Positions 1 through 18,396 of a stretch of DNA of 25,526 bases are shown in pieces (position 1 is the stretch's first letter; each line of letters opens with the position of its first letter). Made by a program: the position numbers and the translations under genes. Source of the DNA: a virus; the IMG/VR virus record IMGVR_UViG_3300021373_002651, positions 1 to 25,526 of that record; one strand, 5' to 3'. Under the pieces are notes generated by a model. The model was given only the letters and a program-made list of their open reading frames with translations, searched no databases and was not told the DNA's origin.

Positions 1-446
1 ATATGAAGAGGCGCATTTGGAGAAGTAGTACCAATACCGACACTGCCATTTGATTTTATTGATAAATTATCGGTTCCAATTCCCGCATTTAAACCTAGAT
101 AAAATGTGCTATTCTCTACGCCTAAATATCCTGTAGTATCATTATCTACAAGGCGTATTTGCATTCTGTTATCAGTAGACCTAAAGTTTACTGTGTTTCC
201 GCCGGCTACATTAACATCTAAAGGATAAGAAGGAGCGGTGGTGCCAATACCGATACGATTATTAACTTCATCTATTTTAAGGGTGCTCTCGTGCGCAACA
301 GTGACTACATCACTATTGGCCGAACCTGTTTGAATATAGAGAGCTTTATCAGCCGTGTTCATTCCGATCTCACCGGCAACACTATTGCTACCCGTGAGTT
401 TATTGCCGGAAGTGCCCGACCGTTTGATCTTAATCGTTTGTGCCAT
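1..446 (-). CDS. Tail fibre protein, N-terminal part (runs off left edge)
   Basis: The frame is open from an ATG at 446-444 to the window edge, giving about 148 residues. It starts MAQTIKIKRSGTSGNK and contains AGEIGMNTADKALYIQTG, the N-terminal signature of many phage fibre proteins and close to the start of the fibre gene just upstream (MAQTIQIKRS, AGELAYS). Two GIGTT(A/S)P repeats follow (NRIGIGTTAPSYPLDV and SVGIGTTSPNAPLH); this repeat is typical of beta-rich fibre shafts that often end in an intramolecular S74 chaperone, but that end lies outside the window. A GGGGA Shine-Dalgarno-like element sits 5 bases before the ATG. It is the last visible gene of the unit driven from 3055-3083, behind a hairpin at 484-503. 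Likely role is receptor binding; this is inferred from family and position, and no specific receptor is suggested. Confidence 0.85.
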   Translation of the reverse strand, partial: MAQTIKIKRSGTSGNKLTGSNSVAGEIGMNTADKALYIQTGSANSDVVTVAHESTLKIDEVNNRIGIGTTAPSYPLDVNVAGGNTVNFRSTDNRMQIRLVDNDTTGYLGVENSTFYLGLNAGIGTDNLSIKSNGSVGIGTTSPNAPLH

Positions 447-2284: not shown

Positions 2285-2692
2285 TTAAAAGGCTCCTGCG
2301 TCTAGCGTATCTGAGTCTGGTGAATCGTCTCCTATCATTATAGGCACCCATTCGAAAACTCCTGTGCTAATCTCGCGGTATACTTTTAGTTGATTATCAT
2401 CTACGTCGTACCAAGTGTCTCCTTCTTCTATGTTTGAGCCAGTTGGTGTTTCTGTTGTTCGAAAGTCTTGGTCTGCAAGTTGCTGTATTGCATCTCGAAC
2501 ATTAGTGGCAGACAAACTGCCGTATGCATTTATAAAAACATTCTCTGCATCAAGAAAATTTACAGGAATAGCAAAATTATTAACGCTAATAGAGGTTGTA
2601 TCCGGCGCAAGAGTTACTTCTACAACATTATTTTCTTTTGTAGATATCTGAGTGACTGTTTCAGCAATTTCAACAATAGTAGTATCAGACAT
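2285..2692 (-). CDS. Small fibre-associated structural protein
   Basis: This 135-residue protein has three recognisable parts. The N-terminal half is short and beta-rich. A central block, GSLSATNVRDAIQQLADQ, belongs to a linker type seen in many environmental phage fibre proteins. A block EEGDTWYDVDDNQLKVYRE follows, a short beta-hairpin type also common in phage fibres. It ends in TLDAGAF, nearly the same as the end of the 584-residue fibre (TLDGGEF). Its ATG overlaps the stop of the preceding gene (TAATG), indicating translational coupling. It probably connects fibres to the tail tip or contributes to a fibre complex; this is inferred from motif content and neighbours. Confidence 0.7.
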   Translation of the reverse strand: MSDTTIVEIAETVTQISTKENNVVEVTLAPDTTSISVNNFAIPVNFLDAENVFINAYGSLSATNVRDAIQQLADQDFRTTETPTGSNIEEGDTWYDVDDNQLKVYREISTGVFEWVPIMIGDDSPDSDTLDAGAF

Positions 2693-3033
2693 TATCTAGT
2701 AACTTCTTGGTTTATCGTAACCTCTCCCTGTATCAGGCGTTTAACAATAGCGTTATTTGTTGTATGAATTTCTAAATCATAATAGTAACGACCCGCTTCC
2801 ATTGCGGAAGAGGCTGCGTTGGATAATTCCATTTTTACTTTTCCATCTGTAAGTGGAGTAAGCACAGTACAGGTAAACGTGCCTGCAACTGTGGAAGAAG
2901 TTCGAGACTTGCGCATTTGTGCCCTGGCTGAATAGCCAGATAAATTCTTAGCCACAGAATCCTCTTTGATTGTTAAGTCAATCGCAAAATCAGATCCTTG
3001 GTCAATAACTAGGTCATATGTAGCAGCGGTCAT
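2692..3033 (-). CDS. Ig-like/BppU-N-like phage structural protein
   Basis: This 113-residue protein begins TYDLVIDQGSDFAIDLTIKE and includes NLSGYSARAQMRKS and AGRYYYDLEI, followed by a closing strand (IQGEVTINQEVTR). This layout is widespread as a small beta-sandwich protein in phage tail-fibre modules and resembles the N-terminal domain of BppU-type baseplate proteins. It is the first gene of the fibre transcription unit: AGGAG lies 8 to 9 bases before the ATG and a perfect sigma-70 promoter is centred about 35 bases upstream. It overlaps the next gene by one base at TAATG. The role, a fibre attachment or adaptor piece, is inferred. Confidence 0.7.
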   Translation of the reverse strand: MTAATYDLVIDQGSDFAIDLTIKEDSVAKNLSGYSARAQMRKSRTSSTVAGTFTCTVLTPLTDGKVKMELSNAASSAMEAGRYYYDLEIHTTNNAIVKRLIQGEVTINQEVTR

Positions 3034-3103: not shown

Positions 3104-4255
3104 TTAATTTATGTTTGGGTAGTATCTTTCTAGGCTAGACAGGTTAGAGTAAGAATTGTACCAACCTTTATCCCCTTTTTCAACATTTAAAATATCTGTG
3201 AAAGTTTTTTCGTACATCTCTACAACTCTATACATATCAAAGTTTCTTTCTGCCCACTCTCTACAAAACTTTGGATCGATCTTATCTATATTCTTGGCTG
3301 CTTCTACAAAGTCTCCAAAAGTTCTACAACGATACCCTGTCAGGCCGTGAAGATTATTTTCTGGAAACGCTCCCCAATCAGGAGTAATTGTAGGCGTTCC
3401 AGAAAGTAACATTTCAATTTGAACACCCCCAAAAGGCTCGTGATAGATTGAAGGAATAAAAGCAGCTTTTGCTTTTGACATTAGCTCACGTCTCATCTCA
3501 ACGCCAGCATAGCCTAGTTCTTCAACGTGCTCGGGAAGTTCAGTGTATCCCATATGAGACATCTCTTGAACAATTCCCCCCTGCCCTGCAACTTTTAGCT
3601 TTACTCCAGCAGCTTCTGCTGCTTGTATTGCGATGTGAACACCTTTACCCTCGTAGACTCTTCCTAAATATAAGAAGTAGTCTTCTTTTTCGTCTTTATC
3701 ACGAAAAGTAAACTGAGATGTATCAAAGTAGTTAGGAATAACTGAAGCATACCAATCTGTTTTACAATGACTGGAGGCTTCTGTGCCTCCCATAATGTGC
3801 ATAATACAGTACGACTCATATATCTTATAAGGAGCAAAAACTCCATAGCTGTATCCGATTCCGGGTTCTACATTTATTAAATCAGGAAACGCATCACATA
3901 CTGCTTTATGTCCCCACCCAAAGAATGCAAGTACAAAATCGTGTTTTTCTTTTCTTTTTTCAATTTCTGCAATTGTATTTTTGTAGTATGTTTGATAAGC
4001 ATGATCATTTACATCGAACTGAAAAAAGTTTTCTCTCCAGTTATAATTTCCATATGCTTTTTCAAGATCAGCGTTTGTAACTACCGTAATGTGCTCATCG
4101 CAGGGTACATCTGATTCTTCGTGTCCATAATGAAAAAGAGTGTGGCCTCTTCCTTGCATCATCTGACAAAACTTTACTACTTTCTGCGTATATGCACACG
4201 CTAAATATTCTAAATTGGACACCGTGTGAGGCAGCCCTAAAACATGAAATCTCAT
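3104..4255 (-). CDS. GT-B fold glycosyltransferase, GT4-like
   Basis: This 383-residue protein has the two-lobed layout of GT-B retaining glycosyltransferases. The C-terminal lobe carries YLGRVYEGKGVHIAI (about 194-208), the nucleotide-sugar-binding loop type of family GT4, and HEPFGGVQIE (about 270-279), the EPFG/E-x7-E signature contacting the nucleotide sugar, followed by LLSGTPTITPDWGAFPE. The N-terminal lobe begins FHVLGLPHT. No signal peptide or membrane segment is visible, so it should act in the cytoplasm. It has its own perfect promoter and an AAGGA ribosome site. It lies between the collagen-bearing tip protein and the fibre genes, so virion glycosylation is one candidate role; modification of host surface glycans or of DNA are alternatives. 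Neither donor nor acceptor can be read from sequence. Confidence 0.88.
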   Translation of the reverse strand: MRFHVLGLPHTVSNLEYLACAYTQKVVKFCQMMQGRGHTLFHYGHEESDVPCDEHITVVTNADLEKAYGNYNWRENFFQFDVNDHAYQTYYKNTIAEIEKRKEKHDFVLAFFGWGHKAVCDAFPDLINVEPGIGYSYGVFAPYKIYESYCIMHIMGGTEASSHCKTDWYASVIPNYFDTSQFTFRDKDEKEDYFLYLGRVYEGKGVHIAIQAAEAAGVKLKVAGQGGIVQEMSHMGYTELPEHVEELGYAGVEMRRELMSKAKAAFIPSIYHEPFGGVQIEMLLSGTPTITPDWGAFPENNLHGLTGYRCRTFGDFVEAAKNIDKIDPKFCREWAERNFDMYRVVEMYEKTFTDILNVEKGDKGWYNSYSNLSSLERYYPNIN

Positions 4256-4519: not shown

Positions 4520-7500
4520 TTACACCGTTAGCTGTATAGCACCATTTAAAGCTCTTAAAAATAGTGCGTCTTCGTCTGTTGTAGAATTAAATCCTACACT
4601 ACTATACCAAACATCGTCCCCTACAGTCCAGTTAGGAATTGAAGTACTTTGTCTTGTCCAGGTTATTGCAGTTCTATCTGTTGAACTATTATAATTCACT
4701 TGTTGAATTTGGAAACCTAAAAAACTACTTACAGAAGTTGATTTTGATGAACTATTTTTAATTCTAGGAGTAGAATCTCCTGTTCGGCCTGCAAGAAATG
4801 AAGTAACATCCCCTCCTACTTCAACAATACTTTGACTGCTATACTGTCCATTTGAAGAAGCTAAACAAGGCCCCAGAAATTCTATCTTTCGCTGGTCTGT
4901 TGTAACCACTCCAGAAGTACTTCTCTGTTGGTGTCTCATTCTGAGTCTGAATTCTGTAGCCTCTGAGATATTTCCTAAAGGAGTAACGAGCGCGTGCATA
5001 GAAGACGTCTGTCCTGTTCCAATAGAAAGCTGCTGATACTCTGGATAAGTATGAGCGCTAATGTATGAGCCTGTATTACTCCAAGCAGCTCCATTGTAAT
5101 AAACGGTCTCATTAATAGAAAACTGACTGCCCATATTGGGACCAGATAAGAAAAATATAGTTCTATCTGTAGAGGCATCATAGCGTATGCCCCGAATTCT
5201 GGATGAACCTGCAGAGGCTGTTGTAGTGTCTGCTATACCTCCAAATCTATCTACAATTTTTGTTTTGTCTCCGTCTACTTCGAGTTCGTGAAGTCCCATT
5301 GAAATAGCTGTAATTGCTTTTGCAGGCCCTAAAGAAACTGTATTGTTTAATCCTGCTGTAGTTTTTTTCTCTAAAACTGTGTGTATTTCCCAAAGAGTCA
5401 TTGCGCTAGAGTTTGGATAGTTTACTACTATTTCCATCTCTGCTGTAAGTACAGCAGCTTTTGTTAAGTCATCAGCAGGATCAGGAACAGAGAATTCAAA
5501 AACTGTTGACGCGGTTGGCATATTGTTACCATTTTCGGATACATTGTGCCTTGCTCCGCCATACACAGCATTTCCATTATAATATGCAAGTTGTTGAATT
5601 TCGGCAACATTACTTGCAAATAGTCGTGGATTAATTGCAGACTCAAGCTCTGTGAACTGTATTGATGTTCCTGTATTTGTAATAGTACTTGTGCCTTGAT
5701 ACTGGTATATCTGTCCCGTGGTTACATCCCAGTATACGTCTTGTGGTCTAATTAAATTTTCGCCACGAACAGCCGCAACAAGATTTGCCATAGAGTCTGT
5801 TGTTGCCATAGAGCCTGGATTACTATTCTGTACTCCATCAAGATCGAAACCAATTGCCGCACCCGCGCTTCCTGCTGGTCCTGACGGGCCAGTAAGTCCT
5901 GTTACTCCAGTACTTCCATTCGGGCCTTGAGCGCCTGTGTTTCCTGGAGGTCCAGAGGATCCTTGAGCTCCTGTATTGCCTGAGGGTCCTTGTACACCTG
6001 TTGGGCCTGTTGCACCAGGAGCACCTTGAGCACCTGTATTACCTACCGGGCCTTGAGCACCTGTATTACCTACCGGGCCTGTTTGTCCTCTTGCTCCTGT
6101 GTTACCTTGAGGGCCTTGCTGTCCTGTATTACCTACTGGTCCTTGAGCACCTGTGTTACCAGACGGCCCTTGAACACCTGTTGGTCCTGTTGGGCCCACT
6201 CCACCTTGAGCACCTGTGTTACCTCTTGGTCCTGTTACACCTTGAGCGCCTGTGTTACCCACTGGACCCTGAGCACCTGTATTACCAGATGGTCCTTGTA
6301 CACCTTGCTGTCCTGTATTACCTACTGGTCCTTGAGCACCTGTATTACCAGAGGGTCCTTGTACACCTTGAGCACCTGTATTACCTACTGGACCTTGAGC
6401 ACCAGTATTACCAGACGGTCCTTGTACACCTTGAACGCCTGTATTACCCCGCGGTCCTTGAACACCTGTTGGTCCTGTTGGCCCGTCAACGCCTTGAACA
6501 CCTGTATTACCGGTTGGTCCTACAGGTCCTTGAGCTCCTGTATTGCCTGAAGGTCCTTGTACACCTTGAGCGCCTGTGTTACCCACTGGACCCTGAGCAC
6601 CTGTATTACCAGATGGTCCTTGTACACCTTGAGCACCAGTATTACCTCGTGGACCTTGTACACCTGTCGGGCCTGTTGGTCCTACAACCCCTTGTACACC
6701 TGTATTACCAGTTGGCCCTACTGGACCTTGAGCGCCCGTATTACCAGACGGTCCTTGTACACCTTGAGCACCTGTATTACCTGTTGGTCCTTGAACACCT
6801 TGTACACCTGTATTACCTCGAGGACCTTGTACACCTGTGGGTCCCGTCGGTCCGACAACACCTTGAGCACCTGTATTACCTACTGGACCTTGAGCACCAG
6901 TATTACCAGACGGTCCTTGTACACCTGTACTTCCTTGAGGGCCTTGAACACCTTGAGCACCAGTGTTACCTGTGGGGCCCGTACTTCCCTGTAGCCCTTG
7001 CTCTCCTTTTTGTCCTTTGATTAGTACAGGATCTTGGAAGTCATCTTGAGTGATATCTATGCTTGCTTTTTCAAGAGCGGATATAGTCCATTTAATATTT
7101 GTTACACCAGCAACAGTTGCATCAATATACCAGCGATAACGAGAATCTGTTTGGCCGCCTTCTACCGTAAGCCAGTAGCCAGACGAACTAATAAATACTG
7201 TAGGAGTAAGCCTTGTAAAATCAGAGGTAGAGGAAGAGTTATCTGGCCCAGCAAAAATTTCTGCCCAGTATGCGGTATCTGATGCAGGAGCAGTACTTCT
7301 TCCGCTGTGGTTTTGTAATGCTACGTATACTTTGGAAGAGTGAGACCTAACATTGCCTAGAGTATACGAACCTCCACTACTCCACGCATTAATTGTGGGA
7401 GCGGTATCTAAAGTATCATCAGGAGCAGTGCTGTAATAAGTAAATACTTGATTTCCTGCAATTCCAGTGCTTCCTGCCGGGCCTTGCTGTCCTTGAGGGC

Positions 7501-10500
7501 CTGAAGAGCCTACAGGACCAGTAGGGCCTACGGCCCCTTGTGCGCCTGTATTACCTACGGCACCTTGAGCACCTGTATTACCTCGTGGACCTTGAACACC
7601 TTGAGCACCAGTATTACCTACAGGTCCTTGAACACCCGTCGGTCCTGTTGGTCCGACAACACCTTGAACACCTGTGTTACCTAAGGGCCCCTGCACACCT
7701 TGAATACCCGTATTTCCTTGGGGCCCTTGTACGCCTTGAGTACCAGTATTACCTACTGGTCCTTGAACACCTTGAGCACCTGTACTTCCTTGAGGGCCTT
7801 GTACACCTTGTGCACCTGTATTTCCTTGAGGACCTTGAACACCTTGAATACCTGTATTACCTACTGCACCTTGTGCACCTGTATTTCCTTGAGGGCCTTG
7901 TATACCTGTTGGACCTGTTGGACCTTCAACACCTTGTACACCTGTGTTACCTCGAGGCCCCTGCACACCTTGAGGTCCTGTAAGTCCTATAGGACCTTGA
8001 ACACCTGTATTACCTGCGGGGCCTTGGACACCTTGTACACCTGTGCTTCCTTGTGGTCCTTGAACACCTTGAGCACCTGTATTACCTTGAGGCCCTTGTA
8101 TTCCTGTTGGGCCAGTAGGTCCATCGACGCCTTGAGCACCTGTATTACCTTGAGGACCTTGTACGCCTTGAATACCCGTATTACCTACTGGTCCTTGTGC
8201 GCCTGTATTACCTTGAGGACCTTGCACACCTTGAATACCTGTATTACCTACTGGTCCTTGTGCGCCTGTATTACCTTGAGGACCTTGCACACCTTGAATA
8301 CCTGTATTACCTCGTGGTCCTTGAACGCCTGTGTTACCTTGAGGTCCCGTGTCCCCTTCTGGACCGGTAGCACCTTGAGGTCCAGTGTCCCCTTCTGCAC
8401 CGGTAGCACCTTGAGGGCCTTGTACACCCGTATTTCCTACAGGGCCTTCTGCACCTGTTGGTCCTGTTGGTCCTTGTGCGCCTGTTGGTCCTATAACGCC
8501 TGAAGGCCCTTCTGGTCCTGTGGGGCCTGTTGGTCCTTGAGAGCCTTGTGATCCTGTTGGTCCTACTGGCCCTGTTGGCCCTTGTGTACCTGTTGGTCCT
8601 TGTGTACCTGTTGAGCCTGTGGGACCTGTGGGACCTGAAGGGCCTCTTACTTGTCCTACATTGTCCCAATTATTTCCGTCATATACCCACATATCACCAG
8701 TATTTTGATCAATTACACCATTACCTGCCGCAGCGTTAGGAAACGCTGCATTAAGAGTAGTTTGTGCATTTGAACCTACCGTTGCTACTGAGCCTACAAT
8801 TGTTACCGAAGTTCCGTCTGCACCTGTTGGTCCTGTTGGTCCTGATGGTCCTGATGGCCCTTGAGTATCTAAAGATCCTCCAGAGACTCCGGTACTAGTG
8901 AAATCGGGGGCGTAGCTAGAAGTACTTGTTTGAAGCCTGTTGAGTTTATTTATAAACTGTATTCTATACCGTATCCAATAATATCTTGTTGCACTTCCTG
9001 AATCTAAAATCTGATCTGTATAGGTGTCCCCTTTTGCATCTGCAATCTTTTTCGCAATATTAACGCCTGATCCACTACTTGAACTTCTCCATATTTCTAC
9101 TGTATGGGTGGTATCTTGATAATTACTTGCATTATCCCAGTTAAGTTCAATGCCCCCTCTGTTATTATTTGTCGCCGTTAAATTTTTCGGCCCAAAAGGA
9201 GTTACTGGAGGTCTTCCAGGAGTTTCTGTGTTGTATTCAGCTACTAAGTCTGAAGGAGCCGCTTCTATAACATAAGCAGAATCATTGTGCTCTTTTGCAA
9301 CAATATCTACTAAAAGATCGTCTCGTACATTTAGAGTTTCTAATCTAAATAGCTTTTTAGTCCAGTTAAATTTAGGATAAGTAATTCCTATGATATTTCC
9401 CGCAAGCAACATATAGCCTTTAGGCGCTACTGTAAATGCGATTTCTAGACCTGCTCGAGATTCGTCCAAAACTTGCTTAATGTTCATTCTAGCATTAAAG
9501 TAGTTTGAAATTCCGGGCGCTTCATAACTACCTTGACGAGGAATACCTTTATCTTGTTTTTTGTAATTTGAATTATAGAACGCTATTGAACGAGGCTCAA
9601 AGTTATTCGAAGGATCAATAATTTGAGCATTAACGGAGTTAAAAGTCTTACTAATTCCTTTATCAGAGATTTTTATATCTCCTACAATTGAATCTTCTGT
9701 AATTACTTCATCTGCCACAAAATCTGCTATTGCTTTTGCTTTTGTTCGCTGATCTAAAAAGTATTTACCATTTGCAAAGCGTAGTATGCCGTTAAACTGA
9801 CGAAGTAAGCTATTTGTATTATCAAACAAAGATTGAGAAGTATCAATAGTAATATTCGTCTGATGACGAGTAGCATATCTTTGATCTGAATTATCCCATC
9901 CTACATACTTCCAGTATTTTACATCATCAGAATCGTACAACGAGTATCCAGTAACTACATTACCGTTAAAAATTTGTTTTACAAAAGGATTGCCTATATT
10001 TGTTGATAGCGAAGTGTTTATGGCTACATCGGTAGTAGTGCCTTCTTTTCGTAAATTAATTGTAATTGAAGCAGCTTGTGTTGGAGCACTCGACAAAGTT
10101 CCTGCGGTAGTAATTAGGCCCCAATATCCTCTATCTGTCCATACTATTTCATTCAAGACGTAAGAAGTATAATTATTCCATTTGCGCCCTAGTTTTCCTA
10201 CACAATCTATGAAGCGTACTTGCTTATAATTAGTACTATTATAAGTGACAGTGTTTACTTCTTCTACTGTACCTTTCCAGAGTAAGTCTCCGGTTTCAGG
10301 GTATCTATACACATCACCTTTTGTTAAAGAAACGCCAGAGGCAAACATTAAAGTTACGTCAGATTGAGTATCACAAGCACGAGCAACCTCTTTAAAGGAT
10401 GCAAGATCTAAGTCTTTTTCTATATCTAAGCCCTTGCCGTAGCGAGTACTAGTTAAATAATCTAGTAGCTGCATTGCTGGATTTGTAGTTACACGTAAAT

Positions 10501-13333
10501 CTCCAAACTGCTCAATATCTAAATGACTGCCCTGTACGCCATACTTATACTTTGCATTTGATATTGTTATTGCATTTGGAATTTGCTTGCTTAAAGATAA
10601 GATATTGTTTGTGTCGCAGAAAGTACGAAGAGCCGTAGTAGTAGGCATTCTAACTGCGCCATTAAAATCATTTTGATCTACTTCAGTTATACTTATGTTT
10701 AGGCCTTCCGTATCTGTTGGATCAACAGTATCGGAAGAATTTTGATAAATCATAGCGCGACTAGTTACGGAGGAACCAGTAGATGAGACTGTGCTCGTAC
10801 CTGTGGCATTAGGGCCGGGAAGACCAAAAAGATTTTCAAACGCAGAAGAAATACCAGTGAATACATACTCCATCGTACTGTCGTCCAAGTCTCCCATACG
10901 TAGACTTGTAGTAGTATTAAACGAGTTCGCAGACAGAGTAACAGTTACTAATTGATTAGTCTCTTTTGCTACTTTAAGAGCATTTTGAGCAAATACAGAA
11001 AGCGAGGAAAAATCTATTTTATACTTGTAATGATATCGCGTTACAGGTACAGTTCCTGAAGGTTCTGGCTCTCCCTCTCCATCATCGCTCCAAACAATTT
11101 CATACTCAGTTGTATGAGTAAGAGTTCGAGTAAGAGTAAGAGTTTTATTTGAAAAATTGCTTCCGGATATAACAAAACCGCCTACAGCGAGCTCATCAGT
11201 AGGAGCTACAGGTGCAGTGGGATCGTTTGAGTACTCAGGAGATATAAATACTAAGTTATCAGAGCCTTTTGTTACTGTGAACTTTCCTAGACTTTGATCT
11301 ACATTTATAGCTTGCTCAGTGGACGCAGTAGAACACTTAAATCGCATTCTGTACTCATAAGCACCTGTAGGATTGATAAAAGACCACTTATCTATAATTT
11401 CGGCAGTTCCACCGCTGGTAGTGCCATCAGATAGAGTTATGCTTACAGTGTCCCCTAGCTTAAAGTTTGTGTGACTTCCTTGAGCAATTCTATAAGAACC
11501 ATCGTAATTAAAGCAGTTAACAAACTTACCTCTAACAACAAAAGACAAGTCAGGGGACCTTTCGTCTTCTGCAGTAATTCCATCCCGTGTAACTACATAG
11601 GCTGTATCAAGAAGCTTATGGTTAGCGGTCCAGTAAGTAGTCGCGTCATCTTTGTAGTATCTTTGCTGAACTAAGAAATCTTTTGAGTTTGCAATACTTA
11701 ATAAAGTTTGATCTGCTTCTTGGTCTTCTTTACCTGCATGAAGTGTTAGCTGAATATTTTTTGCTAAAGGCCAACGAAAGCTTTGACCGTGAAGTACTCC
11801 TCCGCCTGCTGCTGTGCTTGCATTTGTAAAGCTATTATTTCGAATATAGAGACGAGGAGGCTCAAAAATAGTATTCGGATCTCTCCATAAGTCTTCGCCT
11901 TCAAAATCCTCTACTGTTCCATAGTTTTCAGGTTCTAATAAATTACCTGTGTATAAATTTTGACCGGCTAAAACAGTACCGCGATCCATTCTTCCAATAC
12001 AAGGAATGTCTTCTCCGCTTCCTTGTCTTACATCACTGTCTGCTTTATCTCTACATATTAAACCTTTATCCTCCATGTAGATATCATAAACGCCGCCAAT
12101 TGGTCCTTCGCAAAGAACTTGTGCTTGAAATAAGTCTGTTCTACCTTCGGCAACATTATTATCTGCATTGGTATCTTGTGTAATTACTACGTCTGCAAAT
12201 ACAGGAATTGGATCTACTTTTTGAACACCATAAACAAGAGGAATATGCCTTGCGTCAAGATTTAAAGAAAGATCAAGTTCGCGAGTTAACTCAAACTTTT
12301 CTTCTTTGAGTTTTTTACCTCCAAGCATACCAGCGAGACCGCCACGCTTTACCATTTTATACTTTGTACCAATATCGGTATAGCTTGCGATAACATTTAA
12401 AGAAGAATCTGCGTGCATAAAACCTAAGTCTTGAACATACTCAGGTCGAATTGCAGAATCTTCGTTTGAAATACCCGAGCTATCTAATCCTCGGTGAAAT
12501 TCATCAGAAGTTATTCGTCCATTTACACGTACAAAATCTCCCCAGTGACTAGTAAGAGACCAAGTAATTGTTGACTTACCTTGTGCTTTTTCGTTTAGTG
12601 TACCTTTTGCAATAATACCTTTAAAGAGTAGTACTGGATTACCTATTCTTACTCCTGTTGCAGGATTTGCAAAAACTCTGTAAATAGTTACACTTCTATT
12701 GATATAATTATCAAAACTTACAGGCGAAAAAACGGTTTCAGTACCAGAATTGTCTATTCCTCCGGCAACTAAAGCATCAACTTCAGAAGAGTCAAAGCGA
12801 ATATCATAAGATACAGATGAATTTGCTGCAATAGCCGTACTTTCAAGACTAGTAATATCTATCTTTGTTCCGTCACCATGCAAAGAATCAATTCTTGCTC
12901 TAAAAGTTGTTGCAGGATTTGCGTTTCTTTCCGTAAATAAAACAGTGTCTCCCGGATAAAAACCGGACTTAAATAAATCAAAATCTACAGTAAGAGTACC
13001 TGTGCTGTCTGCAGCAATAGAGCTATTTGTAACAGATACTGCATTTGCTCTTTTTCCTAGTTTTGTGGCAGACAGTGTTAGCGAAAGACTAGTCGCTTTC
13101 GCTTCTACAGTTTCTGGTACTTTACCTACTTTCAGTAAACCCCCGGGCTGATAAGTATTTGAGTCATACTCTACAGTATAGGGCGCATCAGTTAGATACA
13201 CATAGTCTGTTGCCTTCTCTGCCTCTTTCGCAAGCTGAGAAGGTTTTTCAAACTTCACTAAGTGATAAACCAATAAAGGATCGTTATTAGCGAGAGCAGT
13301 TTTTATTTCAGATGATATATTTCGTAAAGCCAT
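4520..13333 (-). CDS. Giant tail tip protein (gpJ-like) with FnIII, collagen-like tracts and CBM-like insert
   Basis: This 2937-residue central tip protein is the likely host-recognition hub. Residues 1 to about 270 resemble hub-type domains of the DUF2163 class. A gpJ-like body follows, with the hallmark [19 protein letters not shown] at about 949-967. A fibronectin type III-like domain lies at about 1375-1475 ([20 protein letters not shown]). Collagen-like GXY tract 1 is about 1562-1958 and tract 2 about 2105-2489, with a short GXY patch near 1490. Between the tracts, an insert of about 145 residues contains [20 protein letters not shown] and a later YWAEI, similar to chitin-binding CBM5/12 modules. 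The C-terminal 450 residues are beta-rich with an internal duplication and should form the distal head. Ordinary gpJ is about 1100 residues, so most of the excess is the collagen stalk and head. The ATG follows the upstream stop directly (TAAATG). Confidence 0.92.
6024..6077 (-). repeat. Exact 27-base tandem duplication in collagen array
   Basis: Two identical 27-base units (6024-6050 and 6051-6077) each encode three collagen triplets (GPV GNT GAQ). Identity at the DNA level indicates a recent duplication. Confidence 0.9.
6237..6631 (-). repeat. Pair of exact 71-base direct repeats
   Basis: Positions 6237-6307 and 6561-6631 are identical over 71 bases and lie 324 bases apart, which is exactly 36 collagen triplets (108 codons). 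Recombination between them would remove or add 108 residues in frame. Confidence 0.85.
7460..8655 (-). repeat. Collagen-coding tandem repeat array 1
   Basis: This array encodes about 397 residues of Gly-X-Y. The main unit is again seven triplets (63 bases) but with another consensus, [21 protein letters not shown]. The first part is rich in GPT/GPS and acidic triplets (GAEGDTGPQ). It is separated from array 2 by the CBM-like insert. Confidence 0.93.
8178..8303 (-). repeat. Exact 63-base tandem duplication in collagen array
   Basis: Positions 8178-8240 and 8241-8303 are identical over 63 bases, the full seven-triplet unit. Both copies keep the reading frame. This is the clearest sign of recent unit expansion in the window. 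Confidence 0.92.
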
Positions 13334-13978
13334 TTATGAAAGTGTCTCTTCTAATTTTACAGAAAAAGTGTAAAGTCCTTGTGCGTTAATGCTGTATTGA
13401 ATGTCGGAACCTGGAACTACTACCCTCATACGAGGAGTTCCAAAGCTAACTTGCTCCGTACCTGCTTTTGTTGTGTCAATCTTTCTTTGAAGAGGTGGAG
13501 TTATTTGAAGAGTGCTGCCACTTATTTTTGTTACTTTATAAGTCTTTACGTGAGTATCATCATTTGGATCTGTAACAAAGAACATATCTCCTACATTAAT
13601 ATTTGTTACATTATTCAATGATATATTTACAGCACCTGCTTCTGCGGTAGAAGATACTTCTTTTGTTCCTGCACTTGTGTTTCCATATTGTGGAAGCTCT
13701 ACAAAGAATGCTTCAAGACTCGCTTGTCTTTGTAGCAGAAAAGGATAAACTACATCGAACTCTGCTTTTGTAAGTGAGTTATATTTTATGTCTACCATAA
13801 ACTTTTGATACTTATTTATGCTACGAAAAGCAAGTCCTGAGTTTGAACGATTCATTACAACAGGTTGCTGAGATGTAAGAGTTACAGAAGAAAAGCCAGG
13901 CCCATACGAACCTGACGTATCTTGTCCAGCATCATTAATTCTATTATTTGGATCTGGTAAAGTATTCTGAACCGCCAT
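13334..13978 (-). CDS. Minor/distal tail protein between tape measure and tip
   Basis: This 214-residue protein lies where lambda has its small distal tail genes and where other siphoviruses encode the distal tail (Dit) ring. The segment NRSNSGLAFRSINKYQKF followed by MVDIKYNSLTKAEFDVVYPFLLQRQ, then FFVELPQYG, looks like the tip-proximal minor tail fold in which the first domain packs against the tube. Residues about 115-175 (INVGDMFFV, YKVTKISGSTLQITPPLQ) form a small beta-barrel-like insert. The ATG overlaps the tape-measure stop (TAATG) and the stop abuts the tip gene, so the three are translationally coupled. Family assignment is by position and general appearance. Confidence 0.65.
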   Translation of the reverse strand: MAVQNTLPDPNNRINDAGQDTSGSYGPGFSSVTLTSQQPVVMNRSNSGLAFRSINKYQKFMVDIKYNSLTKAEFDVVYPFLLQRQASLEAFFVELPQYGNTSAGTKEVSSTAEAGAVNISLNNVTNINVGDMFFVTDPNDDTHVKTYKVTKISGSTLQITPPLQRKIDTTKAGTEQVSFGTPRMRVVVPGSDIQYSINAQGLYTFSVKLEETLS

Positions 13979-16900
13979 TATAGCTCCGCTACGTTAATGT
14001 TCTCTAAGAACGCATCGCCCTGTGCATTTGCCGCATCTCGAATCATACTAATAATGTTCCCGCGTTGATTCATGAGTACATCTTCAACGCCTGCTGCATC
14101 TACTGCTGAAATGTTAATTGTTGCGTTTACTGGAGTGCCCTGTTGAATATCATCATTTGGAACAATACGTCCAGGTCTTTCTGGTACAAATAACTCTGGT
14201 CCTTGCTCTCCTACCATAAACGCTGTGTTTCCGCCCTCTGCACGATTCTTATAGCCTGCAAATGCGGGAGTAAAATTCTCTGGACCACCTTGTCCTCTTG
14301 CTCCTCGGAAATATGCAAGTTCTCCTGCGCCTCCTCGTGACCGTGCAAGATCTGTAGAAGACTTTCTTTCTCCTACAGAGATAGAGGTTGCGGCACCGCC
14401 TCCGCTTCCTACACTTCCTCCTCCTGAGTAAGAAGTGCCGGCAATCATTGCTATCTGTGCCGCTCCAAGAGCAATAGTTATTCCGTTCAATACTCCTAAA
14501 ACTCCGGCGAACACTGCGGGAGCTGCTATACCCGCCGCCGCCGCCGCATTTGATGCTGCGGCTACGTTTGCGGCCACTGATGCAGCAGTATTGATTGCAA
14601 CCATACCCATTTGCATTTTCTTCTGTTGCTCAAACGCTTTTCTTTTAGCTTTATCTTTTTTCTTCTCTAGTGCATTAATTTTTGCAACACTATCGGCAGA
14701 TTTTCCGTCTCTTTTCTTTTCTGCTGCAATTTGCTTATCAATTTCTGCAATAGAAGCCGCTGATTGTTTTTGCATAATATCAAAGACTGCGGCCATAGCT
14801 GTAGATACTACTTGTAAAGTAGCGGCAGTTCTTACGGCTCCTTCTGATGCCTTACCTGTAGCGAAAGTTATTTGCTCTGAAGCAACTTGATATGCTGTCG
14901 CAATACTCATAGCCCCTCCAGCAACCGAAGATATAACTTCCCCTTCGGGACCTAGCTTAGCTAAATCTTCTAACATAGGAGTTAGAGTGTTTTGCATACC
15001 CTGAAGCTGCATACTTAAAGGAGCAGCGTTTCCTGATTTTGATCCCTGAGCTCCTGTGCCTAGCATATCTACAAATGACTGACCTCTTTCTATAGTACTA
15101 CCAGATTGAGTTCCTTTTAAGGCTTCTTGATTTACTTTACTTACTGTTTTTATGTAGTCTGCTGAAATAGCAAGCATTGTTGCTTTGTGCTGTTGTTCAG
15201 CAGCAGTTAAAGTTGCACTCTTTAATTGTGAAAGTATTCCTTCGTCTGATAGGAAGTCTTTTTCCAGAGTATTAGCAAGATCTGTAAACTCTGAATCTCC
15301 GGTTTGTTTTGCTTGTAGCTTTAGTTGTGCTACCAGCAATTTTGTTTGAGCCTCTAGTAGTTTGAACTCTAATTCTATAGACTTTTTTCGTATATCAAAA
15401 GCTTTTACTTCTGCTTGAAATCTTTCTGTTAGTAGACTTCGCTCTATCTCTCTTGTTTGTGAGGCTGTTATATTTGGATCGTAGCCTCTGTTTGGATCTC
15501 TTGAGTTTCTTATCGCAGTTTGGCTTTCTAAAATAGACTTACGAGCACTTATTTCTTTTTGTACTTCTGAGTTCAGCTTGCTCTGCATATCTAGCATAGC
15601 TTTGGCGCCTTTTTGCTTGGCTTGTATTACTGCTACATTTGCTTCCTCTAAAGCTACCGCACCTTCTAGCTCATCCGTTTGCTTTTCTGTTAAAGTTAAA
15701 ACTTCTTGGTCTAACTTTGCTATAAGAGCCATTATATCTGCCCTAGCTTCTGTCGTTACGTTCGTTTGTAATAAGGACTCATTAAAAGCTATCTGACCGT
15801 TTAAGTCGTCTAATTGGACATCAAAAACTGCTTGCCTAGCTGCTAAAAGCTGCCTTGTACCCTCGACACTAAAGTTATTTCTTGCTTCTATTTCCTCTGC
15901 AAATAACTTTGCACGGCTTAGTTCGTTTTTAGAAACTATTTGTCTTTGACGCTCAGTATTAAATAAATTATTTAAAGTAGTTAACTGGTCCCCCAGAGAA
16001 GCTTTTTTTGAATCCTCTATCGCTGATTGGAGGCTAAGAGAGGTTGTTATCATACCATTTAAGGAGTTTTGCTCTCTTAGTAAGTCAGTATTTATAAGAT
16101 TATACCTTACCTTTTTATTCCCCATAGTATCTGTTCGTACTGCTTCTCTTGCTTTGTATAAAGCATTTACGAGCTTTCGTTGTTTTTCTATTTGTGCGTT
16201 TTGATGGGCTAAAGAGTCTGTTAATCCTGAGTCAACAACAGGAGCTACCATATTTTTTAAGTTTTCTAAAGCAGGACTTTTTGCTATTTGCTCATCAATT
16301 ATTTCTCCAATATCTCTACCTCCTGCATTTCCAGATAGGGAGTTTACAACTTCGTTTAATGCATCACTAATTGCATCTACAGTTGTCTTTGGACGCAAAC
16401 TTGTAAAAAAGTCAGCAGCTGCGGTTTCTGCATTTTTGAATGCCTCTTCTATACCTTTTACCGCTATAGCCTGTGCTTGCTGAGCTTTTATTAAATTCAA
16501 CGTTATTTCTAATTGATTCTCTAAGTTACCATTTAGTTCTCTTATTTTTGTTGTTCCATAAGTTTCTTGAAAAGCTCTTTGCAGCTTTTTACTGCTGTCT
16601 ATCTGCTCTTGAAGGAACTTTGCAGTTTCTTTTGGAGCAGCTACAGCATCGGTAGAAGATAGCTCCTGAGCTTTTTCTATTACTGTAGAAAGACTGTTTC
16701 CATAAGCAATATAAGTTTTAGTTACGCTGTTAATTTTATCAGAGTTTCCTGCTACGGCCTTATCTATTTCTTTAAAGTTTATTGCAAGCTCTTCACTAGT
16801 TTCTTTTAGTCCTTCTAGTCTTTTTTCAAGAAGTTTTGTTTCTTCGCTTATAAACTGTTTTCTTACTGCTTTGAAGCCTTCCACTAACATACTGAAAGCC

Positions 16901-18396
16901 ATGATAGCCAAAGATATAGGCCCCAATAACAAAGAGAAAGCCGCTCCAGCAAGACGTGCAGCAGTTCCAAATGCTTTCAGAGCTACAGCGCCAACTCGTA
17001 AACTTTTTGTAAAAAAGCCCTGTGCTTTTGTGGCCGCACCTAAAGAGCCTCTGTAAAGAAGCATTGATCTTCTTAAATTCTTTAAAGCTACTCCGTATCT
17101 TCCTGCTTGAAGTGCATTAATCGCTTTGGACTCTGCCAAAGCGGCACTCGAAGCTCTTTGACGCATTTCTGCGCCTCGTATTTCGTTAATAGCTTTTTTA
17201 TTTGTTCTGAGTCTTTTTGTGTACTCTTCTTGAGTAATTGATCCTCTTGAAAGAGCACCTAAGTTGCCTCTCATCGACATTACTTGGCCTTTTACAGCTT
17301 CGTCATATTCATAAGTTGCCGCAGTGCCATCCTTCAACGAGGCTGATAAATTAGATAGGGTAGTACTAGATCGGTTGAAGAAGTTTAAATTTTCTCTAGT
17401 TGTTTTACTTAAACCTTTATTTGCATCAGCAATGTTCTTTGCTTTATCGGAATAGTCAGCAAGACTTCCTACTAATTGCTTAGATATAGTGGAGGCAAAC
17501 AGAGCCATAACACCTATTAGAGCTGCAGAAGATCCTGATACAAAATTTATTAAAGGAGTTAAAACATTATTTAAAAGATTTAATCCTGACTTTGACAAGT
17601 CTGCAAACGCTGCAGCAAGACTATCATAAGCATTAGAGTCTACATTAATATTACCAAACTTTTCATTTGCTTGATCTAAGGTTGCATTAGCGAAGGCCTG
17701 CCTCTTTTCAAAGTTTGTAAGTTGAGTAACGCTTTTTCCTAAAGTTCTAGCGTATTCTTCTGACGCTTCATCGACTCTTACAAACAAGCCTATTTCATCC
17801 AAAAGTTCTGGCTCTAACTTTGTAACACCTCGAGTAAATCTCTCAAGAGCATCTTGGGTGTTTCTGCCTAGAGCAACTGCAGCTTTTTGAGCGGCGGCGC
17901 CAAAGTCATCAACCAAACTAGGATCAAGTCCTGCACTGGTAATCATTGAAGTTGCTCTCATAGCTTCTTCTAGGCTAAGTGCATTTTTTGTTGCTTCTTG
18001 CATTCCTCTTGCTAGAGTTCCCATTGCAAGACCAGAAGCTCTGCCCATTTCAGTCAATCCCTGGGCCAGCTGCTCAACTTGAGCGGCTCGTCTTAAAATA
18101 TTGAAGGCAGCACTAAGAGCAAAAACGTTTGCAGCAAGAGTAGCGTACGCAGGTACAAGACCTCCACCTCCAGTCATCGACTCTCTCATTTTTGAGAAAG
18201 CTTTTGTACTGTTACTTGTAGCTTGAGCTACTCCTTTTTCGCCTTTGTTATACTTTTCTCTGGATTTACGAGTTTTGTCTGTTGATTTACCAAGCTTATC
18301 GGTTTCTTTAGCGGCTTTATCTGCTTTTTTCGCAACAACGTCTAAAGAGCCGTCATCTCCAACGCGAATAGTTAATTTAACTTCGTTTGATGCCAC
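13978..18396 (-). CDS. Tail tape measure protein
   Basis: This 1472-residue protein sets tail length and is ejected with the DNA. It starts at GTG (18396), with AGAGA about 7 bases upstream, and overlaps the chaperone stop by 20 bases. The N-terminus is basic and Lys-rich (KADKAAKETDKLGKSTDKT). Hydrophobic stretches lie at about 77-104, 279-299, 484-505 and 1265-1330, with long helical coiled-coil-like segments between (about 510-610 and 780-1110). Near the C-terminus, FMVGEQGPELFVPERPGRIV (about 1394-1413) is the GE-GPE-FVP signature common in tape measure proteins. At the usual rule of about 1.5 Angstrom per residue it would specify a tail near 0.2 micrometre. No lysozyme or peptidase domain was recognised. 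Confidence 0.93.
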   Translation of the reverse strand: MASNEVKLTIRVGDDGSLDVVAKKADKAAKETDKLGKSTDKTRKSREKYNKGEKGVAQATSNSTKAFSKMRESMTGGGGLVPAYATLAANVFALSAAFNILRRAAQVEQLAQGLTEMGRASGLAMGTLARGMQEATKNALSLEEAMRATSMITSAGLDPSLVDDFGAAAQKAAVALGRNTQDALERFTRGVTKLEPELLDEIGLFVRVDEASEEYARTLGKSVTQLTNFEKRQAFANATLDQANEKFGNINVDSNAYDSLAAAFADLSKSGLNLLNNVLTPLINFVSGSSAALIGVMALFASTISKQLVGSLADYSDKAKNIADANKGLSKTTRENLNFFNRSSTTLSNLSASLKDGTAATYEYDEAVKGQVMSMRGNLGALSRGSITQEEYTKRLRTNKKAINEIRGAEMRQRASSAALAESKAINALQAGRYGVALKNLRRSMLLYRGSLGAATKAQGFFTKSLRVGAVALKAFGTAARLAGAAFSLLLGPISLAIMAFSMLVEGFKAVRKQFISEETKLLEKRLEGLKETSEELAINFKEIDKAVAGNSDKINSVTKTYIAYGNSLSTVIEKAQELSSTDAVAAPKETAKFLQEQIDSSKKLQRAFQETYGTTKIRELNGNLENQLEITLNLIKAQQAQAIAVKGIEEAFKNAETAAADFFTSLRPKTTVDAISDALNEVVNSLSGNAGGRDIGEIIDEQIAKSPALENLKNMVAPVVDSGLTDSLAHQNAQIEKQRKLVNALYKAREAVRTDTMGNKKVRYNLINTDLLREQNSLNGMITTSLSLQSAIEDSKKASLGDQLTTLNNLFNTERQRQIVSKNELSRAKLFAEEIEARNNFSVEGTRQLLAARQAVFDVQLDDLNGQIAFNESLLQTNVTTEARADIMALIAKLDQEVLTLTEKQTDELEGAVALEEANVAVIQAKQKGAKAMLDMQSKLNSEVQKEISARKSILESQTAIRNSRDPNRGYDPNITASQTREIERSLLTERFQAEVKAFDIRKKSIELEFKLLEAQTKLLVAQLKLQAKQTGDSEFTDLANTLEKDFLSDEGILSQLKSATLTAAEQQHKATMLAISADYIKTVSKVNQEALKGTQSGSTIERGQSFVDMLGTGAQGSKSGNAAPLSMQLQGMQNTLTPMLEDLAKLGPEGEVISSVAGGAMSIATAYQVASEQITFATGKASEGAVRTAATLQVVSTAMAAVFDIMQKQSAASIAEIDKQIAAEKKRDGKSADSVAKINALEKKKDKAKRKAFEQQKKMQMGMVAINTAASVAANVAAASNAAAAAGIAAPAVFAGVLGVLNGITIALGAAQIAMIAGTSYSGGGSVGSGGGAATSISVGERKSSTDLARSRGGAGELAYFRGARGQGGPENFTPAFAGYKNRAEGGNTAFMVGEQGPELFVPERPGRIVPNDDIQQGTPVNATINISAVDAAGVEDVLMNQRGNIISMIRDAANAQGDAFLENINVAEL

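Follow-up and report, generated by a model that had tools for sequence, protein, structure and literature searches.

The tail-tip hub gene of this marine virus runs on, in one reading frame, from its hub body into two long collagen tracts with a middle domain between them, and its product is likely to form a trimeric collagen stalk that is enzymatically modified and holds a distal head far from the tail. The gene lies at positions 4520 to 13333 on the minus strand of the window (the whole stretch of 25,526 nucleotides that was analyzed), as do all other features described here. It is a single intact ORF with an ATG start, open throughout, and encodes 2937 aa. The hub body (aa 1 to 1490; positions 8864 to 13333), assigned by PDB, PHROG, and tblastn comparisons, ends in an FnIII-like stretch (approximately 8894 to 9220). 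A scan for Gly-X-Y repeats then revealed a mini collagen tract of 6 triplets (8807 to 8860) and, after a short interdomain of 54 aa named lk1 (8645 to 8806), which sequence comparison also placed in the hubs of relatives L014 and L226, collagen tract 1, with 133 uninterrupted triplets (399 aa; aa 1564 to 1962; 7448 to 8644). The middle domain, lk2 (144 aa; 7016 to 7447), leads to tract 2, with 129 uninterrupted triplets (387 aa; aa 2107 to 2493; 5855 to 7015). Straight after tract 2, the C-terminal head of 444 residues begins with a cap domain that is common to relatives and carries an IxFD...DVYWD motif in their alignment (5624 to 5854), and it ends with a distal head of ~370 aa (4523 to 5623). 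An earlier note on this DNA had described uninterrupted tracts of about 397 and 385 residues at 5866 to 8655, linking the body of a tail-tip protein to its C-terminal head; the gene layout bears this out, and the stalk is real, with the span about 11 bases off (the tracts lie within 5855 to 8644) and each tract two residues longer than noted. The window sequence contains no frame break in the repeats.

Homology and gene position identify the product as the hub of the baseplate in a T5-like siphophage of marine origin. A phmmer search of the PDB with the hub body matched 7zhj (E = 3.9e-76) and 8hqz (E = 2e-70), the pb3-matching stretches being aa 209 to 440, 506 to 616, and 1133 to 1355, and tblastn gave matches in about 900 T5-like phage records. 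As expected from the position of a T5 pb3-type hub, the gene follows those for a T5 pb2-like tape measure protein of 1472 aa (13978 to 18396; PHROG 3779, E = 8e-74, and tblastn with T5 D18/pb2) and a T5 pb9-like distal tail protein (13334 to 13978; PF21425, E = 3.5e-5, and PHROG 1302). The body had previously been called that of tip protein J. T5-type hubs were the sole PDB matches and gpJ was absent from them at E values up to 10; lambda gpJ was therefore dropped as the direct homologue in favor of T5 pb3, though the PHROG 31 profile matches (E = 9e-29), as PHROGs puts T5-type and gpJ hubs together as "central tail fiber J." The likeness to lambda gpJ thus lies in functional position, in this common grouping, and in the same kind of stalk on J-like hubs of relatives (L022, L023, and L091), whereas the window body has no direct sequence match to gpJ structures. 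Lambda J itself is not known to contain collagen. The earlier label "FnIII" is plausible by eye (aa 1372 to 1480) and by position, but Pfam and PDB searches with this stretch were not significant and leave it unconfirmed.

The T5 pb3 hub is a trimer and starts the central fiber (PMC10038345). Since T5 hubs of this kind are trimeric, the hub would suit a collagen triple helix, and to this extent the earlier argument from a trimeric tip protein holds. The window and T5, with its pb3 and central fiber pb4 (PDB 7zhj and 7zqb), share a homologous hub body, the gene order of tape measure, distal tail protein, and hub, and a hub C terminus that begins the central fiber; however, T5 follows its two FNIII domains with a beta-helix spike formed by a different protein, pb4, whereas the window hub continues into two collagen arms within one polypeptide. 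In our model, three hub copies would seal the tail tube in the manner of T5 pb3. Their C termini, rather than giving way to a separate pb4-type fiber, would extend as a single-polypeptide, trimeric stalk of collagen. Each tract comes to about 110 nm at 0.286 nm per residue, in agreement with the estimate of over 100 nm made previously: arm 1 would reach ~114 nm if fully helical and arm 2 ~111 nm, and the middle domain, if folded, could be a knee. The cap domain aligns among hubs of both hub types described below and is a probable trimer-registering cap, beyond which the window phage would carry its extra 370-residue head.

The N-terminal half of lk2 is weakly CBM5/12-like (Pfam CBM_5_12, E = 0.007, below the cutoff), and the domain is 77 to 83% identical to the middle domains of L021 to L024; no homologues of it were found in bacterial genomes or plasmids. 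Relatives of the distal head were found in neither phages nor IMG/VR, and although the head looked internally duplicated on inspection, self-BLAST gave no support for this. With too few relatives, AlphaFold models of the middle domain and the head reached pLDDT values of just 42 and 32, respectively, too low to be usable.

The collagen-domain-collagen stalk is a module that occurs on two hub families, one T5 pb3-like and one lambda J-like, and two alternative middle-domain types are each present on both. The lk2-type stalk is found on T5-like hubs L021 and L024 and on J-like hubs L022 and L023, the body of L023 matching gpJ 8iyk (E = 8e-60), while the second type is common to L205 and J-like L091 (59% identity). 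The hub survey covered 79 loci of 215 relatives, and because collagen contaminates the J profile, J-like hits were retained only if they scored high and had a body other than collagen. The two-tract layout, for which a search among J proteins had been suggested, also occurs in J-like hubs and is a recurrent module rather than a unique case. A single tract with breaks of 1 to 4 residues near its middle is found in L196, L204, and L215, so that the arrangement of a domain flanked by two tracts is not universal among collagen hubs. Although tracts this long had been called exceptional for gpJ, their length is not exceptional among viral proteins: in a sample of 80 viral contigs selected for long collagen tracts, 17 reach 129 triplets or more, and the related hub L219 has a tract of 210 triplets plus at least 154 more, which rules out a record for the window hub.

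The slot after the hub gene holds a GT4 glycosyltransferase gene (3104 to 4255; PHROG 3408, E = 2e-154; Pfam Glycos_transf_1, E = 2e-16), which we propose to be stalk modifying, and is bounded by g113, an LtfC-like or L-shaped tail fiber assembly-like gene (2692 to 3033; PHROG 3304 and PHROG 1084). The earlier note was silent on this neighboring glycosyltransferase, which we judge the most informative part of the region. The contents of the slot differ among relatives, which have 2OG-Fe(II) oxygenases, glycosyltransferases of other kinds, or a COLGALT/LH3-like fusion there. Glycosyltransferases or hydroxylase-like oxygenases, alone or together, occupied the slot in 10/10 collagen hubs and in 2/25 hubs with little or no collagen (Fisher P = 3.6e-7), and in 0/19 hubs without any. 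Conversely, when GT4 relatives were gathered by glycosyltransferase sequence alone, 14 of 17 loci had a collagen ORF within 10 kb, directly upstream in 8, and the same test gave 0/103 for control ORFs at hub loci. A glycosyltransferase gene is thus linked to a collagen gene, as for BclA and L230, both in the window and across loci. Within the T5-like hub set, the window-type GT4 is confined to the window, L021, and L024, the other collagen hubs having other enzymes. The GT4 would probably glycosylate the stalk before assembly, stabilizing or protecting a collagen without hydroxyproline. Reading its target from Ser/Thr at Y was dropped, as no enrichment was seen next to GT4 (P = 0.29); GNT enrichment occurs in a subset of GT4 loci only. 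GT25 and/or PLOD domains, as in PLOD/L230-type enzymes, are not those of the window enzyme; they occur in L205, where an enzyme that fuses COLGALT1-like and LH3-like domains (GT25 and GT_PLOD, matched to the human proteins) adjoins a lysine-rich collagen.

The tracts themselves are clearly collagen-like (Pfam Collagen, E = 1.4e-111), and none of 200 shuffled versions of the protein had a Gly-X-Y run above 6 triplets. All four Gly codons are in use, the 786 tract residues include no aromatic residue, His, Cys, or Met, and no exact DNA repeat exceeds 72 bases, which makes a simple repeat artefact of assembly unlikely. They could conceivably be low-complexity, length-variable linkers without a rigid triple helix, so that the head would hang on three flexible strands. 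Charged residues are indeed few (9 K+R and 10 D+E), Pro at Y is almost absent, and Asn, which is not known to be stabilizing at X, fills 18% of X positions. We nevertheless consider such linkers improbable, as Gly periodicity is perfect across 262 triplets, Pro makes up 35% of X and Gln/Thr 75% of Y in keeping with the uninterrupted, Pro-rich repeats of collagen-like fibers, bacterial triple helices typically have Thr at Y and Pro at X (PMC8968730), and a triple helix has been proven for EPclA, a collagen of phage origin (PMC3368898). The two arms are matched in length across a more than fourfold range of total length (11 proteins; Spearman 0.92; permutation P = 4.5e-5). Equal arms might be a by-product of recombination of one tract with the other and not of a structural need, which is quite possible even if we lean against it: the two tracts of one protein have more similar vocabularies than tracts of different proteins do (mean cosine, 0.34 versus 0.06), but the partner tract is the best match in just 6/12, the arms of L205 (60 and 45 triplets) have no common hexapeptide vocabulary (cosine, 0.0), and the window tracts share at most 25 identical bases.

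Under the preferred reading of a modified stalk, the slot enzymes would act on collagen. Their target might instead be DNA, glycans of the host surface, or a different tail protein, and they might lie near collagen only because both belong to a variable receptor-recognition region; small tail proteins also occupy the slot in L024, L186, and L018, and nearby collagen is absent from GT4 relatives L148, L149, and L173. This seems rather unlikely, as the inserted tail genes of L186 and L018 come without an enzyme (and with 19 or 0 triplets), none of the 19 collagen-free hubs has a slot enzyme, and in the sampled long-collagen contigs COLGALT/LH3-like genes adjoin collagens with Lys at Y (median, 0.23 versus 0.0; P < 1e-5), which we read as an enzyme-substrate match. 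It is also unlikely that the protein is an ordinary phage collagen-like tail fiber protein, new in length alone. Such fibers are well known (PMC3368898), and viral contigs often contain long tracts; however, the stalk is here fused to the very hub that would close the tube, and this in two separate hub families, which, together with matched arms and linked enzyme genes, sets it apart. Like the EPcl side tail fibers of E. coli prophages, it would be a trimeric phage fiber with a collagen rod between capping domains, but those are not hubs, their longest Col domain is 322 residues in one piece, and excerpts of PMC3368898 mention no linked modification genes.

Glycosylated collagen-like surface fibers are also known from Bacillus BclA and from Mimivirus, which encodes its own modifying enzyme, L230 (PMC8968730, PMC4691112, and PMC9614988); these are spore or giant-virus surface proteins, whereas the window enzyme, a candidate stalk modifier, is a GT4, not L230-like. 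The enzyme gene beside the hub suggests that this virus and its relatives carry out their own collagen processing, in much the same way as animals. Beyond this, we put forward, as a tentative proposal with slightly less than an even chance of being right in full, that tailed phages of marine waters mount collagen stalks on the tube-closing hub and encode the collagen-type hydroxylases and glycosyltransferases that process these stalks, including some COLGALT/LH3-like fusions matched to lysine-rich collagen; that the 2OG-Fe(II) oxygenase "auxiliary metabolic genes" of marine phages are partly virion-maturation enzymes; and that equal arms plus a middle domain make a foldable, knee-jointed stalk. 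If so, a collagen chain, a hydroxylase, and collagen glycosyltransferases in one tail operon would be a bacterial-virus counterpart of animal collagen biosynthesis, and phage-carried hydroxylase genes would gain a concrete role. In a Baltic Sea survey, prolyl 4-hydroxylase was among the abundant viral genes, and its use by viruses "remains cryptic" (PMC9301287). A siphophage tail tip might then bear a stalk that roughly equals the tail in length (~225 nm from the residue count versus ~220 nm from the tape measure), which would change the picture of host search at low cell density. The modification claim is directly testable in cultured phages: Roseobacter phage CRP-6 (gp60 and gp58), cyanophage S-CAM9, and phage S-8S56 resemble L205 in pairing collagen with a GT25 plus GT_PLOD enzyme, the domains of human LH3/PLOD3 and COLGALT1, with 2OG oxygenases as separate genes in S-CAM9 and S-8S56, and ACG-2014f and S-CAM7 combine genes for collagen, GT4, and 2OG/PiuC.

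The minus-strand ORF at 4520-13333 is open throughout its 2937 residues, with no stop or frame break, and carries the two long, uninterrupted Gly-X-Y tracts described in the earlier note. Tract 1 (7448-8644, minus strand) is strict Gly-X-Y over 133 triplets and tract 2 (5855-7015, minus strand) over 129 triplets, with a 144-residue domain separating them and a mini-tract of 6 triplets lying upstream of both. The longest run in the shuffled hub protein was 6 triplets at most. An origin of the tracts by chance, by slippage only or by assembly collapse is a weak explanation, since aromatic, His, Cys, and Met residues are absent from them, all four Gly codons are in use, and the longest exact DNA repeat is 72 bases.

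The body of this protein had been taken for lambda gpJ, a reading that had to be given up, as comparison with solved structures returned T5-type hubs only (7zhj, E 3.9e-76; 8hqz, E 1.9e-70). Genes for a pb9-like distal tail protein, a pb2-like tape measure, a tail tube, and T5-like capsid proteins lie near the hub gene. Together, the hub matches and these neighbors identify the source record, a virus contig of 25.5 kb, by homology as a fragment of a T5-like siphophage, which, judging from its relatives, is probably marine. An FnIII assignment for part of the hub body is plausible, and searches of Pfam and PDB gave no confirmation of it. The T5 protein pb3 forms a trimer that seals the tail tube and is the start of the central fiber, continued by pb4 (PMC10038345). 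Further tail-fiber-like proteins are encoded at the left edge of the window (3-446, cut by the contig end, and 510-2264).

The length of the tracts turned out to be less exceptional than first proposed. A scan of IMG/VR with a threshold of at least 65 Gly-spaced triplets matched at least 120 stretches; long collagen tracts are common in viral proteins, because 17 of the 80 stretches examined reach at least 129 triplets. Among the 120 stretches sampled, a long tract was found on no T5-type hub and on one J-like hub (locus L091). A hub-directed search yielded at least 20 triplets in 19 of 83 T5-like hubs, duplicates included, and the hub of locus L219 has 210 plus at least 154 triplets. Long non-collagen extensions are present on many collagen-free T5-like hubs; the T5-like hub at L019:9986-23506 has 4507 amino acids with a repetitive non-collagen extension. 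By eye, some T5-like hubs, including those of L015:7010-13780, L197, and L199, have C termini with the look of a Hint/intein-type self-processing domain (Cys start, HNHAFLT, and terminal CVHN).

The domain between the tracts recurs with 77 to 83% identity in four other contigs, on T5-type hubs (L021 and L024) and on J-like hubs that match PHROG 31 (L022 and L023, the latter with E 8e-60 to lambda J 8iyk). In both hub types it is flanked by two collagen tracts. A second, unrelated-looking middle domain is common to T5-type L205 and J-like L091 (59% identity), and most often tract 2 leads into a cap domain. The same middle domains and tract layout on both hub types indicate that the stalk is a cassette that moved between hub families.

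The two arms are matched in length. For the two largest tracts of each of eleven non-duplicate complete proteins, the triplet counts were (133,129), (76,81), (57,50), (100,100), (23,40), (132,102), (60,45), (73,79), (76,77), (47,49), and (55,62), giving a rank correlation of 0.92 (permutation p 4.5e-5; n = 11, kinship between proteins ignored) and a mean ratio of shorter to longer arm of 0.88 versus 0.39 for random break points (n = 11). Three of the 11 are single tracts with breaks of 1 to 4 residues near the middle. A stalk that can fold at a central knee would account for the matched arms; a realistic alternative is that the tracts recombine with each other.

Where a T5-like hub locus lacks collagen and g113, the LtfC-like gene, is recognizable, this gene usually starts 44 to 78 bases past the hub gene. 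The slot between the two is filled in 10 of 10 non-duplicate collagen hubs. By Pfam, the occupants are GT4 in the window (3104-4255, minus strand), L021, and L024; a 2OG-Fe(II) oxygenase in L196, L197, L202, L204, and L215; a Capsule_synth glycosyltransferase-like protein in L196 and L215; GT25 plus GT_PLOD in L205; and DUF6445 with a weak GT2 match in L180. An enzyme occupies the slot in 2 of 25 hubs with fewer than 20 triplets, those two having 10 and 7, and in 0 of 19 hubs without any collagen (slot enzyme versus collagen on the hub, Fisher p 3.6e-7). Except for the window, L021, and L024, the loci surveyed came from the hub search and not from a collagen search; L021 and L024 were first found via the middle domain, and the hub search also yields them (as L239 and L189). 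Relatives of the slot oxygenase at L202:17116-17658 occur in 350 phage records, mostly of cyanophages. Small tail proteins lie between hub and enzyme at L024:9149-10634 and L204:15809-17255 (MAYGIEIFN... and MKQFAF...) and are candidate distal adhesins binding the stalk cap.

The pairing also appears when the hub is set aside. Starting from GT4 only, a collagen ORF lay within 10 kb in 14 of 17 non-redundant viral loci and directly upstream in 8 of 17; the count for control ORFs at hub loci was 0 of 103. Successive regions of the L205 enzyme match human LH3 (E 1e-28) and COLGALT1 (E 3e-13), and genes resembling it are found close to collagens in which Lys occupies Y (median 0.23 versus 0.0, p below 1e-5, in sampled long-collagen contigs, several of them related). 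Among cultured phages, Roseobacter phage CRP-6 encodes a 99-triplet fiber in which 26% of Y positions are Lys, and the second gene after it encodes GT25-GT_PLOD. In cyanophages S-CAM9 and S-8S56, genes for a collagen fiber (37 to 44% Lys at Y), for two 2OG-Fe oxygenases, and for GT25-GT_PLOD follow one another. Collagen and GT4 genes occur with PiuC in ACG-2014f and with a 2OG oxygenase in S-CAM7.

Collagen extends 0.286 nm per residue, and a tape measure corresponds to about 0.15 nm of tail per residue. Most likely, the trimeric hub would extend into a collagen stalk, putatively triple-helical, that measures about 225 nm. This approximately equals the tail length predicted from the tape measure (1472 residues), and the cap would set the register of the putative trimer. 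GT4 probably adds sugars to the stalk, compensating for missing hydroxyproline. Lys stands at Y in about 0 of 262 triplets of the window tracts, and Ser/Thr at Y showed no specific enrichment beside GT4. In BclA collagen, the sugars are believed to aid hydration (PMC8968730). Viral collagen is both hydroxylated and glucosylated by Mimivirus L230 (PMC4691112, PMC9614988). Phage collagen fibers are already known (PMC3368898); among the papers searched, none describes hub-borne collagen stalks accompanied by modification enzymes, and the wider literature may contain such a description. What viruses use prolyl 4-hydroxylase for was called cryptic in a Baltic Sea survey (PMC9301287).

The GT25 plus GT_PLOD proteins, at L205:8125-9315, L240:7899-9665 (CRP-6), L241:7857-9698 (S-CAM9), and L242:2964-4826 (S-8S56), lie beside Lys-rich collagen fibers, with 2OG-Fe(II) oxygenases also present in two of the three cultured phages; in all three phages, the protein is annotated as "hypothetical protein."
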